A stretch of 58,567 nucleotides of DNA from Rickettsiales bacterium (lineage in GTDB: Bacteria; Pseudomonadota; Alphaproteobacteria; Rickettsiales; SXRF01). Location: positions 1 through 58,567 of the forward strand of contig JAJTHB010000013.1 of NCBI GenBank assembly GCA_021299465.1, given 5' to 3'. The position numbers and the translations under genes are program-made. Positions within the stretch are counted from its first letter, which is position 1. Each line of letters starts with the position of its first letter. Shown here piece after piece: positions 33,705-53,381 of this stretch. Under the pieces are notes generated by a model, which was not told where the DNA came from, made no database searches, and saw nothing but the letters and a program-made list of their open reading frames with translations.

Positions 33705-33766
33705 GGGTTATCTCATTTTCAAAAATGTCACAACACGCTGCTCAAGCGACGCTGCAATCCTTTTTT

Positions 33767-33838
33767 GTCATTCCGACCCCGCACTTGCTTTGCGGGGGAG
33801 GAATCTTAAGATCCCTCCGCTTTCGCGTTCGGGATGAC
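33767..33838. repeat. GTCAT...ATGAC palindromic element upstream of tig
   Basis: 72 bases beginning GTCATTCCGA and ending GGGATGAC, with internal arms (CCCCGCACTTG / TTTGCGGGG) and the block AATCTTAAGATCC at its centre. Members of the same family lie at 49014-49083, 49686-49753, 52083-52142 and 53296-53375. Confidence 0.8.
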
Positions 33839-33845
33839 AAAAACA

Positions 33846-33877
33846 TTGGATTGCTTCGCTCACGCTCGCAATGACAA
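33846..33877. repeat. Second palindrome, TTGGATTGCTTCG...CGCAATGAC
   Basis: A 32-base sequence of the widespread form GATTGCTTCGCTCACGCTCGCAATGACAA, directly after the previous element. It is likely a half-copy of a related palindrome. Confidence 0.6.
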
Positions 33878-49013: not shown

Positions 49014-49083
49014 ATGACACCACTCCGGCGCAAGCCGGTATCAAGGTGTAATCAAACTAGATTCCGGCTTTCGCCGGAATGAC
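49014..49083. repeat. GTCAT-family palindromic element upstream of rpmI
   Basis: Two facing hairpins CTCCGGCGCAAGCCGGTA and TTCCGGCTTTCGCCGGAA, each a CCGGC/GCCGG palindrome, in a 70-base unit bounded by ATGAC-type ends. It lies in the 310-base gap between the BI-1 and rpmI genes; the remaining gap shows no further gene. Confidence 0.75.
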
Positions 49084-49099
49084 AAGAAAGGATAAGAAA

Positions 49100-49678: not shown

Positions 49679-49685
49679 TTCATTT

Positions 49686-49753
49686 GTCGCCCCGCACTCG
49701 CTGCGGGGCCTCATGCCACTTGCAAGGAGATCCCGCAATGAATGCGGGATGAC
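49686..49753. repeat. GTCAT-family palindromic element between rplT and pheS
   Basis: Hairpin CCCCGCACTCGCTGCGGGG at its left end, GATCCCGCAATGAATGCGGGATGAC at its right, 68 bases in all. It begins just after the rplT stop and ends 11 bases before the pheS ATG. Confidence 0.78.
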
Positions 49754-49764
49754 AGAGTCTGAAT

Positions 49765-50787
49765 ATGGATCTATCCACCCTTCGCACCAACTCATTTTCT
49801 GCCATTGCTGGCTGCATATCATCTGCCGCACTCGAAGAAGCGCGCGTAGCGCTGCTCGGCAAGAAAGGTTCGATCACTGAGGCTCTCAAAACGCTCGGTC
49901 AGGCGACGCCAGAAGAACGCAAAACGCTCGGCGCTGAACTAAATAAACTCAAAACCGAGATCGCAGATGCGATTGATGCCAAAAAATCCGAACTTGCCAA
50001 GGCAGAGCTGAACGCTCGGCTTGCCAGCGAAACCATCGATGTCACCCTGCCTGCCCAGCCTATACCCCAGGGGCGCATCCATCCGGTATCGTATGCCACT
50101 GGGGAAATCAGCGCCATTTTTGCGCAGATGGGCTTTTCGGTTGCGCAGGGGCCGGATATTGAAGATGACTACCATAACTTTGATGCGCTCAACATCCCCG
50201 CCAGCCACCCTGCGCGGCAGATGCACGACACATTTTATTTAAACGGTGGCCAGCTACTTCGCACCCACACCTCGCCGGTGCAAATTCGCACGATGAAGGC
50301 TGGTAAGCCTCCGTTTCGTTTCATCGCACCCGGCAGCACTTATCGCTGCGATTCTGACCTCACGCACACCCCGATGTTTCATCAGATCGAGGGTTTCGTG
50401 ATTGATAAAAACATTCACATGGGGCACCTGAAGGGCTGCCTTACACAATTTCTGAAAGCATTTTTTGAGCTGGATCAGGTGCCGGTGCGCTTTCGCCCGA
50501 GTTTCTTTCCATTCACCGAACCATCGGCGGAAGTCGATATCGGCTGCAAGCGTACGCGTGACGAGCTGAAAATCGGTGAAGGATCAGACTGGCTGGAAGT
50601 GATGGGCTGCGGCATGGTGCATCCGAATGTACTTAAAAATTGCGGCATTGATCCAAATGAATGGCAGGGTTTTGCCTTTGGCATGGGCGTTGAACGCCTC
50701 GCCATGCTGAAATACGGCATCCCCGATTTGCGCACCTTCTTTGAAAGCGATGTGCGCTGGCTTAAGCATTACGGGTTCACGTCATGA
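49765..50787 (+). CDS. pheS: Phenylalanyl-tRNA synthetase alpha subunit
   Basis: Catalytic subunit of the alpha2-beta2 enzyme. An N-terminal coiled coil is followed by the class II core: motif 2 [41 protein letters not shown], and motif 3 in [19 protein letters not shown]. 340 residues. Its TGA overlaps the pheT ATG (ATGA). The start is taken at the ATG 11 bases after the palindrome. Confidence 0.97.
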
Positions 50788-53294
50788 AATTCACACTAAG
50801 CTGGCTCAAAGACCATTTGGATACATCAGCCTCGCTGGATGAGATCAGCAAAACACTCACCGCTATCGGCCTTGAGGTGGAATCAATCACTGATCGCAGC
50901 GAGGCGCTGGGAGCCTTCACCGTTGCCAAAATTCTTCATGCTGAAAAACATCCCGAAGCCGATAAGCTTCGCGTGTGCAAGGTGCTGTCGGACGCGGGTG
51001 AACTACAGATCGTTTGTGGCGCGCCGAATGCACGTGCGGGCATTTTTGTGGCGCTTGCCAAAGAAGGCGCGCTTATTCCACGCGATGGGTTTGTGATTAA
51101 GAAAACCAAAATTCGCGGCGTGGAATCAAACGGCATGCTGTGCTCGGCGGATGAATTGCGGCTCGGCGGTGATTCCGAGGGCATCATCGAGCTGCCGGAA
51201 GCAGCAATCGGCGCACCTATTGCCGAAGTGCTCGGCCTTACCGATCCGGTGATCGACATTGCCGTCACCCCCAACCGCGCCGATTGCCTTGGCGTTCGCG
51301 GCATCGCCCGCGACCTCGCGGCGGCAGGGCTTGGTACATTGAAAGATCCAGGATCAAGCGCCCGGAGTTCAGGCGAAAATTTCGAATCCCCGATCAAAGT
51401 CTCCATCCAGACACCACATTGCCAGCAATTCATTGGTATATACCTCAAGGGGGTATCAAATCAGCAAAGCCCCGCTTGGCTGAAACAGCGCTTAGAAGCT
51501 ATCGACCAGAAGCCGATTTCAGCGCTGGTGGATATCACCAACTATATCACCATCGATCTTGGCCGGCCGCTGCATGTGTATGACGCCGATAAACTGAAAG
51601 GTAGTCTCACCGTGCGCGGCGCGAAAGCCGGCGAACCGCTACATGCTTTAAACGATAAGCATTATGAGCTTTCGGAAGGGATGTGCGTGATTGCCGATGA
51701 ATCTGGCGCGGTAGCCCTGGGGGGTATCATCGGTGGCACGACCACTGGCTGTGATGCGAATACCAAAAATGTATTTCTGGAAGTTGCGCTTTTTGATGCG
51801 GCGCATGTTGCGGTGAGTGGCCGCACACTGCAAATTAATTCCGATGCACGCTACCGTTTTGAGCGCGGGCTGGATGTCGCTTTCGCAGAACAAGGTGCAG
51901 CGCATGCTGCTGCGATGATTGGGTCGCTCTGCGGCGGTGAAGCAAGCAAGCCAGTGATCGCAGGAAACACACCTGACTGGAAGCGCCAGATTACCTTTAA
52001 TCACGAGCGCGTGAAGACACTCGGCGGCGTGGATGTGGATTCAAAGAAATGCCAAGAGATTCTCACTAGTCTTGGTTTTAATGTCATCCCGAACGCGCAA
52101 GCGGAGGGATCTAAAGATTCCTCGCCTATGGCTCGGAATGACAATTTTTCTGTGACCCCGCCTAGCTGGCGCGCAGACATCGAGGGTGAGGCTGATTTAG
52201 TCGAAGAGATTCTGCGCATTCACGGCTATAACCATATTCCTGAAACGCCGCTTGCCAAGCCATCCACCGTCTCTCATGCTGGCGAAACCACTTTAGAAAA
52301 ACGCGCTAAACTTGCACGCAACGTTTTACCCTCCAGAGGGTATTTGGAAACGTGCAGCTATTCCTTTATTTCACGCGCTGAGGCCGAGCTTTTCGGCGGC
52401 AATAATCCAGCCCTTACACTACAAAACCCGATCTCGGCTGATCTCGAAGTCATGAGGCCAAGCCTGATTCCCTCGCTGCTGATTGCCGCGCAGAAAAATA
52501 GCCGCCGCGGGCTAAAAGATTTGCAGCTGTTTGAAATTGGGCTTCAGTATCATGGTGTAAAGCCTGATGAGCAGCGTTTGGTTGCTGCAGCAATAACAAC
52601 TCAAGAGGCTATTAATCCTAAATTCTTTGCTACCAAAGTAAAAATATCAGGAAAAGCACACGAAGCCAGTGCTGATTATATCGCTGTTAAGCCTCAAACT
52701 ACGGCTTTCTTTTCTGTTGAAGTTTTACCTATTCCAGCACTGAAAGCGAAGAGCGAGGCCATACACCTGCTCGGCCATCTTGGCCTAGCCAAATGCGATG
52801 TGACGACAGGTACCCCCGCATGGTATCACCCCGGGCGCAGCGGCGCGCTGACGCTGGGCGGCAAGATCATACTCGGCTATTTCGGCGAATTGCACCCTGC
52901 CCTGCTTGCTGCCATGGATATCGATATGCCACTCGTTGCCTTTGAAATTTTTCTGGGTAACATTCCCGAGCCGCGCGCAAAAGGCAAAGCCAAACCACCG
53001 CTGAAGCTTTCAGATTTTCCAGCAGTGGAGCGCGACTTTGCCTTTATCGTGGATCAAAAAGTTCCAGCCAGTGATATTGAAAAGGCGCTGCGCGCAGCCG
53101 AGAAAAATCTCATCACTGATGTGCAGCTTTTTGATGTCTATGCAGGCAAAGGCGTTGAGGCGGGCCAGAAATCCGTAGCGGTGCGCGTGACGTTGCAATC
53201 ATTCGAGCGCACGCTCTCGGAAGATGATATCGCCGGCGTCTCCCGCCAAATCCTGCAGGCAGCCGGTAAGTTCGGCGGTGTGCTGAGGCAGTAA
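50784..53294 (+). CDS. pheT: Phenylalanyl-tRNA synthetase beta subunit, with a repeat-derived 20-residue insert
   Basis: 836 residues. Order of domains: N-terminal part, tRNA-binding EMAP-like domain ([23 protein letters not shown]), the B3/B4 editing domain ([26 protein letters not shown]), the B5 domain, the core ([23 protein letters not shown]) and a C-terminal FDX-ACB anticodon domain. The normal transition into [30 protein letters not shown] of B5 is interrupted by residues 434-453, which are exactly the translation of a 60-base palindromic element (52083-52142). The frame is kept. The insert sits before a loop and may be tolerated. Confidence 0.96.
52083..52142. repeat. GTCAT-family palindromic element inside pheT (in-frame, 60 bp)
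   Basis: Begins GTCATCCCGAACGCG, ends GCTCGGAATGAC, and starts on the first base of codon 434. Exactly 20 codons are added without a stop. Compare 33767-33838 and 53296-53375, which share the ends and the ATCTTTAAGATCC-like centre. Confidence 0.9.
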
Positions 53295-53295
53295 T

Positions 53296-53375
53296 GTCAT
53301 GCCGAGCGTAGCCGAGGCATCTTTAAGATCCTTCGACTCCCCTCGCAACAAGTTGCGAGGCACGCTCAGGATGAC
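53296..53375. repeat. GTCAT-family palindromic element between pheT and the glycosylase gene
   Basis: 80 bases, GTCATGCCGAGCG to CTCAGGATGAC, with inner arms CCTCGCAAC / GTTGCGAGG and a centre ATCTTTAAGATCC. It ends six bases before the glycosylase ATG. Confidence 0.8.
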
Positions 53376-53381
53376 AACTCT

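Follow-up and report, generated by a model that had tools for sequence, protein, structure and literature searches.

A palindromic repeat within pheT of a Rickettsiales bacterium is probably a gene-less copy of an element that encodes a GIY-YIG nuclease

The window analysed here is a 58,567-nucleotide stretch of DNA from a Rickettsiales bacterium (contig JAJTHB010000013.1 of assembly GCA_021299465.1), in which pheT, the gene for the beta subunit of phenylalanine--tRNA ligase, carries a 62-bp palindromic element that is translated in frame. Elsewhere in the same genome, the two halves of this palindrome enclose a gene for a GIY-YIG nuclease. The insert in pheT is probably a non-autonomous, gene-less copy of a palindromic element whose full version encodes that nuclease. 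In what follows, G000 denotes the window genome and G001 a genome of the same genus; palindromes of the R type read TGTCAT-YCYGAGC..., and those of the S type are perfect hairpins, for example GTCATCCCGTGGCTTGTCCACGGGAT.

Results

The full-length unit was found in the trp operon of G000 (G000:C27:4936-5288, or 1937-2289 of locus L096), where a GIY-YIG gene is enclosed by left and right halves of the palindrome. The start codon of this gene directly follows the left half, and its last residues are encoded by the right half. The unit is 353 bp long, sits between trpG and trpD, and provides the stop codon of trpG. Five matches to PF01541 were obtained in the genome, one of them being the gene of this unit. 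A second (C17:54208) has an S-like hairpin pair on its flanks, two others belong to another subfamily (one without a detected inverted repeat, the other with only short ones of 14-15 nt), and the fifth, lying in a 621-aa frame, is by its size probably UvrC.

No GIY-YIG unit was present directly 3' of trpG in 12 of 12 family relatives, as judged over 127 nt and by a simple motif pattern on the trpG loci; by eye, the next gene begins at or a few bases from the trpG stop codon in ten of these 12, and one has another repeat at the junction. The trpG junction of one relative, G007, holds a GTGGAACGTGGAAGGTGG-like repeat, a different repeat family at that place. In G004, which belongs to another genus, an R-type GIY-YIG unit (G004:C7:2657-3040) lies between trpD and a trpC-like frame, so that the two genera carry insertions at different junctions of this operon.

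The association between nuclease and palindrome was examined in two sets of loci, with inverted-repeat cut-offs (12 and 14) that were chosen in the first script, ahead of the second test, and were not preregistered. The named set comprises the best 80 of 570 confirmed loci among the nearest relatives of the nuclease in 84,980 species genomes. An inverted repeat with a score of at least 14 was found across the gene in 40 of the 79 loci with enough flank, compared to 5 of 2044 placements of the same geometry in these loci, although the tail of the query used for this set is encoded by the half-element and is a possible source of bias. The second set was drawn from 131 genomes of the window's order using the core residues (no tail) as query; the gene was detected in 58 genomes, and the best match of 30 of these 58 was fetched. 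Here, 22 of 30 loci had an inverted repeat of at least 14 across the gene, in comparison to 0 of 494 control placements. For a control GIY-YIG subfamily from the same genomes the figure was 1/30, and the lone positive overlaps a core-type match at G116:C36, identifying it as a cross-hit. Similarly, a GTCA[TC] hairpin no more than 250 bp away accompanies all 30 order loci and 69 of the 80 named loci, but none of the 30 control loci.

The two components also tend to occur in the same genomes. Of the 131 order genomes, 44 contain R1 palindromes, and 35 contain both these and the gene (p 8e-9, Fisher's exact test, kinship ignored). In the 57 gene-bearing genomes other than G000, the best nuclease score correlates with the R1 count (Spearman 0.33, p 0.011), and the genomes with the four best nuclease matches have 38-41 hits to the model, a figure that counts both strands and is capped by the 41 candidates scored.

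To extend the comparison to S-type relatives in named replicons, 12 of 32 records were inspected. An inverted repeat of at least 14 was seen in nine of the 12 and a hairpin by rule in eight (the one in Spirosoma being doubtful), and clear CGTC-type pairs stand at GIY-YIG genes of Azospirillum, Aeromonas, Rhizobium CIAT894, Shinella, Sphingobium and Neisseria. The placement control for these replicons was not clean (18/132 at 14 or above) because in loci of such short length the placements run into the palindromes themselves, with flank windows slightly wider than in the order test; the controls were therefore taken from the named-loci, order and DUF559 tests. In G001, a GIY-YIG gene at G001:C98:800-1600 is flanked by a further palindrome type (TTGTCATTGCGAGCG...GCAATCCAG). 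No match to the nuclease was obtained in phage records at E 1e-5.

A tree was built from 71 core sequences, comprising every second named locus (40/80), the 30 order loci and L099. Sixty-six rows with a palindrome label were counted after five unlabelled ones had been dropped, four labels being set manually (S for L211 and L099, R for L125 and L145). On this tree, R-type nucleases cluster separately from S-type ones, and the R/S label changes only once (SH-aLRT 91), as compared to a mean of 19.7 changes on shuffling (0/500 shuffles as low). The R-type nucleases come from Bacillota, Chloroflexota, Actinomycetota, Spirochaetota, Fibrobacterota, Saccharimonadota, Verrucomicrobiota, Thermodesulfobacteriota and Pseudomonadota, including the window's order. 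Thus, palindrome type tracks nuclease clade, in a sample where every S-type row belongs to the window genome or to its order (named S-type loci were left out), and where the named R-type rows were retrieved via similarity to an R-type protein but labelled from their flanks.

Y7, Y18, G20, R28, H32, E65 and N84 are conserved at 99% or more across 110 proteins. The GIY-YIG motif set consists of a Tyr, Tyr-x-Gly, Arg, His, Glu and Asn, and the retention of these catalytic residues argues that the enzyme is under selection. An AlphaFold model of a named relative (L102; 23 sequences) has a mean pLDDT of 95, and Foldseek placed it nearest to the UPF0213 protein BH0048 (E 1.2e-4) and then to Slx1 (E ~0.02, probability 1.00); at the sequence level, no match to solved structures was obtained at E < 0.05. 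Slx1 is a nuclease of branched DNA, and the nearness of the predicted fold to it would fit recognition of a hairpin or cruciform.

We then returned to the insert in pheT. Its DNA folds at -29.8 kcal/mol, as compared to a mean of -15.6 kcal/mol for shuffled sequences (z -4.83; 0/200 shuffles as good), and the reading frame of PheT, which has 836 residues and is the only PheT match of the genome (E <= 1e-20), stays open across it. An earlier note made from the DNA letters (the original prediction) had proposed a palindromic repeat inserted in pheT with the frame kept, and this is borne out by the open frame, the fold and the many copies in the genome; the nuclease gene of the full-length versions had escaped it. 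The note had placed a 60-bp unit at 52083-52142; the coding phase indeed begins at 52083, but the unit extends one base further on each side. Likewise, the 62 bp hold the 20 whole codons that had been counted as added residues (434-453), yet the insert site has 24 residues in the window compared to 5-12 in all 29 aligned relatives, giving a net gain of 12-19. A PheT match was obtained in 48 genomes besides G000, from which these 29 loci were fetched and aligned, and the insert residues, which the note had suggested seeking in other PheT proteins, are missing from every one of them; a smaller alignment of 14 of the 29 shows the same short loop without the insert. As the B5 domain covers residues 403-482 (Pfam), the element sits inside it, in a loop of variable length, rather than just before it as had been thought. 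In G001, the native pheT DNA at the place of the insert also starts with GTCATCC.

Twelve aligned copies of the element all start with TGTC or CGTC and all end with TGACA. Each half of the unit forms a hairpin with a 5-bp stem, and over the 12 copies all 120 cells of the two stems are paired in standard fashion. Ten cells have changed on both sides (0/500 shuffles as high) in four such pairs (3/500), and shifting the stem partners by 1-3 columns abolishes this signal. A palindrome or cloverleaf over the whole length was also considered as the conserved structure, and was rejected, with no pair changed on both sides. Since the halves covary and the whole length does not, the folded unit that has been kept in evolution is a pair of hairpins and not a single long arm or cloverleaf.

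To determine how widely the element has spread in its genome, BLAST and a covariance model were used. BLAST yielded 16 matches, some of which are both strands of one place, with the best six places at E 4.3e-34 to 1.3e-7. The model was built on the 12 copies and applied to 150 of 913 first-look candidates, making the copy count a lower bound; at least 30 places were found at E < 1e-9, and 36 were tabulated by adding six weaker ones. Two pairs of places, C11/C28 and C18/C34, have identical sequences and are situated at the ends of contigs, so that distinct R-type copies number at least 28. Copies stand in frame in six conserved genes: pheT, ileS, mtaB, a yejF-like ABC ATPase gene, a hisN-like phosphatase gene and rnr (names from NCBIfam, with the yejF and hisN models below their curated cut-offs). 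When the other five host proteins were aligned to homologues of solved structure, the inserted segments were left unaligned, fell in gaps or aligned poorly. In the part of the 30 places that was annotated, several further copies are in frame shortly upstream of gene starts. The ileS copy is nearest to that of pheT (94% over 66 bp), with the same reading frame and a near-identical peptide, which suggests recent spread into two tRNA synthetases.

Within the window (Table 1), four related copies between genes had been predicted near pheT and farther upstream. The copies at 33766 and 53295 match the family model, but the one at 49685 does so weakly and the one near 49015 does not match it at all; by eye, these last two are S-type palindromes. 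In G001, pheT and the gene after it overlap (ATGA, by eye) with no element at this place, and the counterpart of the copy at 33766 is a perfect-hairpin palindrome. Beside that copy, at 33841-33877, lies a piece of a TTGCGAG-type palindrome (ATTGGATTGCTTCGCTCACGCTCGCAATGACA) with up to 97% identity to several places in G001.

Table 1. Features of pheT and palindromic elements in the window.
Feature	Position	Strand	Basis
62-bp palindromic element, R type (TGTCAT...ATGACA)	52082..52143	+	Sequence; covariance model 74 bits; PheT residues 434-453 in frame
First half-hairpin: ATCCC (52086-52090) pairs with GGGAT (52106-52110)	52086..52110	+	1/5 pairs changed on both sides
Second half-hairpin: ATTCC (52117-52121) pairs with GGAAT (52135-52139)	52117..52139	+	3/5 pairs changed on both sides
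pheT, phenylalanine--tRNA ligase beta subunit	50784..53294	+	Open reading frame intact; TIGR00472 722.6 bits; Pfam domains
PheT B5 domain, residues 403-482	51990..52229	+	Pfam PF03484; relatives' alignment; variable-length loop interrupted by the element
Same-family copy following the pheT stop codon, ahead of the next gene, 82 bp	53295..53376	.	Covariance model 57 bits
Same-family copy between genes	33766..33839	.	Covariance model 64 bits; 90% identity to the pheT copy over ~50 bp
S-type palindrome (perfect hairpin, by eye)	49685..49754	.	Weak family-model match, 24 bits
S-type palindrome by eye, left end degenerate	49015..49084	.	Inverted-repeat scan; no family-model match

Relatives without the insert and empty sites show that insertion took place after divergence. 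The G001 counterparts of three sites (pheT, 3' of pheT, and trpG/trpD) have GTCA or TGAC near the junction, a hint, not a proof, that a short target may be used at insertion; at the element-free ileS site of G003, no GTCA or TGAC target was seen by eye.

The ileS site that holds the R-type copy in G000 could be matched in nine of 12 relatives. It is occupied by an S-type palindrome in G006 and G009 and by a CCCTC-type palindrome in G001 and G005, and it has no palindrome in G003, G008, G013 and G015. In G004, the site (G004:C197:5474-5904) contains a whole DUF559 nuclease of ~140 residues, in frame and bounded by CCCTCTCCC palindromes; no intein-like splicing part was seen in this insert by eye. 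In addition to its palindrome at the shared site, G005 carries an R-type palindrome in frame at a second ileS site.

The layout seen with DUF559 in G004 recurs in the order. PF04480 was found in 38 of the 131 genomes, and inverted repeats of at least 14 accompany 25 of 30 DUF559 loci, in comparison to 1 of 468 placements. Nineteen of these 30 are found within open frames of 600 residues or more, and an ileS signature is present in eight of the 30 frames. Ten more long frames were assigned to dnaE (two), valS (two), priA, mfd, carB, a PRK06567-type protein and gltB, with one matchless; both sides were checked in part of the frames, and in the gltB frame the nuclease stands upstream of gltB's own start and hence outside the gene.

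Discussion

We propose that the full element consists of a one-domain GIY-YIG gene between two hairpin-forming half-palindromes. The nuclease would recognise its own hairpins, or a cruciform formed by them, and would cut the donor or the target, after which repair could copy the element into the new site. Loss of the central gene would leave solo palindromes that may still be mobilised in trans, and copies landing within genes would survive where the frame remains open and some 20 extra residues fall in a tolerant loop, as the B5 loop of PheT appears to be.

Several points weigh against this proposal. Mobility rests on genome comparison, no transposition event having been observed, and many of the assemblies compared consist of tens to hundreds of contigs. 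In the 12 bp flanking each copy, no target duplication could be made out by eye, the empty sites being much diverged. The inverted repeat across the gene falls below 14 in 8 of the 30 order loci and 39 of the 79 named loci. The core GIY-YIG gene was undetected in 9 of the 44 R1 genomes, and 23 of the 58 gene-bearing genomes are without R1 palindromes, with some loci showing the S type instead. G019 has 35 R1 matches yet a weak nuclease match, and G104, the fifth best nuclease genome, has zero R1 matches. Finally, GIY-YIG enzymes are hydrolytic nucleases and are not known to join strands.

A different mover, either a RAYT-type transposase or replication slippage, might instead have spread the palindromes, with the GIY-YIG gene a homing passenger that lands in them. 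The exact position of the gene at the palindrome centre would suit a passenger, as would the gene-bearing genomes without R1 palindromes just mentioned, and repetitive extragenic palindromes (REPs) have been reported as targets of insertion sequences (PMC1525189). We nevertheless regard this alternative as unlikely. The entire unit, halves included, is absent 3' of trpG in the 12 relatives; palindrome type and nuclease clade switch together once, and mimicry of this by a passenger would need strict specificity; and a second, unrelated nuclease, DUF559, has the same layout. We consider it very unlikely that selection keeps the repeats as working hairpins in RNA or DNA (terminators or mRNA stabilisers) and that they are not selfish DNA. 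Their stems do covary, and copies are found directly 3' of genes, as after pheT and at the trpG stop codon formed by the element, but copies also lie within six coding regions, their presence is patchy even inside a genus, and sister genomes carry other palindrome types at the same place.

The B5 loop of PheT might also have been natively longer by these 20 residues, the palindrome being coincidental. Loop length does vary in relatives, and the GTCATCC start in G001 could be read in this way. This possibility is refuted by the copies in the genome and the alignment of relatives, and we give it practically no weight: the insert is found in 0 of 29 relatives, and the genome has at least 28 stretches of such DNA, the one in ileS being nearly identical. 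It is also highly improbable that the element is the classical Rickettsia palindromic element (RPE) RPE1. Both are palindromic and lie in frame in genes, and genera rich in RPE1 (g18 and g60) belong to family f12 of the same order, the window genome being in family f1. However, RPE1 (TIGR01045) was rejected as a candidate, as G000 lacks any match at E <= 0.01, compared to up to 48 (the number scored) in single f12 genomes, and it is not among the NCBIfam matches of the six host proteins (for the ATPase, among the 25 of 195 matches shown). G001 has one weak RPE1 match (E 0.0035), under the curated cut-off. The original prediction had spoken of another alphaproteobacterial genome; judging by the RPE1-rich family, the host is probably not of a distant group but shares its order with Rickettsia.

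The element in pheT can be set beside several known systems. The resemblance to RPEs noted in the original prediction holds, in that a palindromic repeat is translated in frame within a tRNA synthetase gene, and in the broad sense of a multicopy palindrome in frame in conserved genes the element qualifies in six genes. RPE1 itself is, by description, a palindromic repeat in genes (PMC10969869), and its matches in the order are translated in frame in longer open reading frames, but its model has 48 residues. The element also resembles CGTC REPs, some of which are the RPE-4 and RPE-6 of Rickettsia conorii, which occur within genes and seemingly lack a dedicated transposase (Di Nocera et al., 2013, PMC3733652). 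Their TGTC/CGTC ends, inverted (HH) hairpin pairs and alphaproteobacterial or Rickettsia hosts have parallels in the window element, which has TGTC at both ends and two half-hairpins in inverted order; inside genes, CGTC REPs add 20-30 residues, and the window element is likewise found in genes. CGTC REPs are, however, described with AT-led stems of 8-9 bp, loops of 4-5 nt and a CCA tail (PMC3733652), unlike the 5-bp ATCCC/GGGAT stem, 15-nt imperfect loop and missing CCA seen here, and we therefore do not class the window element as a CGTC REP; RPE-4 and RPE-6 are its relatives by description only. The S-type ends at GIY-YIG genes do fit the description of CGTC REPs, best in Azospirillum, Aeromonas, Rhizobium CIAT894 and Shinella, but here such palindromes flank nuclease genes, in contrast to the account of CGTC REPs without a dedicated transposase (PMC3733652).

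The arrangement also recalls REPtrons, in which an enzyme gene lies between inverted hairpins that match dispersed solo repeats (RAYT with GTAG REPs; PMC3733652), except that the flanked gene here is GIY-YIG (PF01541) or DUF559 and not a RAYT tyrosine transposase; no search was made for RAYT genes elsewhere in the genome. Similar to miniature inverted-repeat transposable elements (MITEs; PMC10969869), the solo palindromes would be small inverted-repeat copies, devoid of genes, of a larger element that encodes a protein, but no transposase parent was seen and no target-site duplication was found. With UPF0213 and Slx1 this GIY-YIG clade shares the catalytic set and, in the predicted model, the fold; its tie to palindromes sets it apart from the control subfamily (0/30). 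The window element is a variant of the known in-gene REP/RPE-like palindromes. No report of the nuclease link, for GIY-YIG or for DUF559, was seen among the open-access papers listed, judging by titles and abstract openings. GIY-YIG is absent from a MITE review that treats RPEs (PMC10969869) and from PMC12306157, and 'GIY' is absent from PMC3733652.

In the 2013 survey, the missing mobilising enzyme is a mark that distinguishes CGTC repeats (PMC3733652). A nuclease encoded between the repeat halves, with palindrome type tracking its clade, provides a concrete candidate for that enzyme. With more reserve than for pheT itself, we lean towards a wider proposal, in which small nucleases that stand alone (this GIY-YIG clade and, independently, DUF559) would be the missing mobilisers of palindromic repeats in bacteria at large, CGTC-type REPs and RPE-4/RPE-6 among them. 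The hairpin-nuclease-hairpin elements would then form a transposase-free class that spreads by cutting and repair and sheds gene-less copies, some of them in frame in essential genes. If borne out, the nuclease link would define such a class of mobile element, offer a possible source for Rickettsia-type in-gene palindromes, and describe a route by which essential proteins may acquire segments of 20 to ~140 residues. In practice, annotators could come to recognise such elements in short open reading frames and in unusual inserts of annotated proteins. A GIY-YIG core match at G020:C8:10391-10660 lies within a 1609-aa open frame and is perhaps an in-frame insertion resembling the DUF559 cases.

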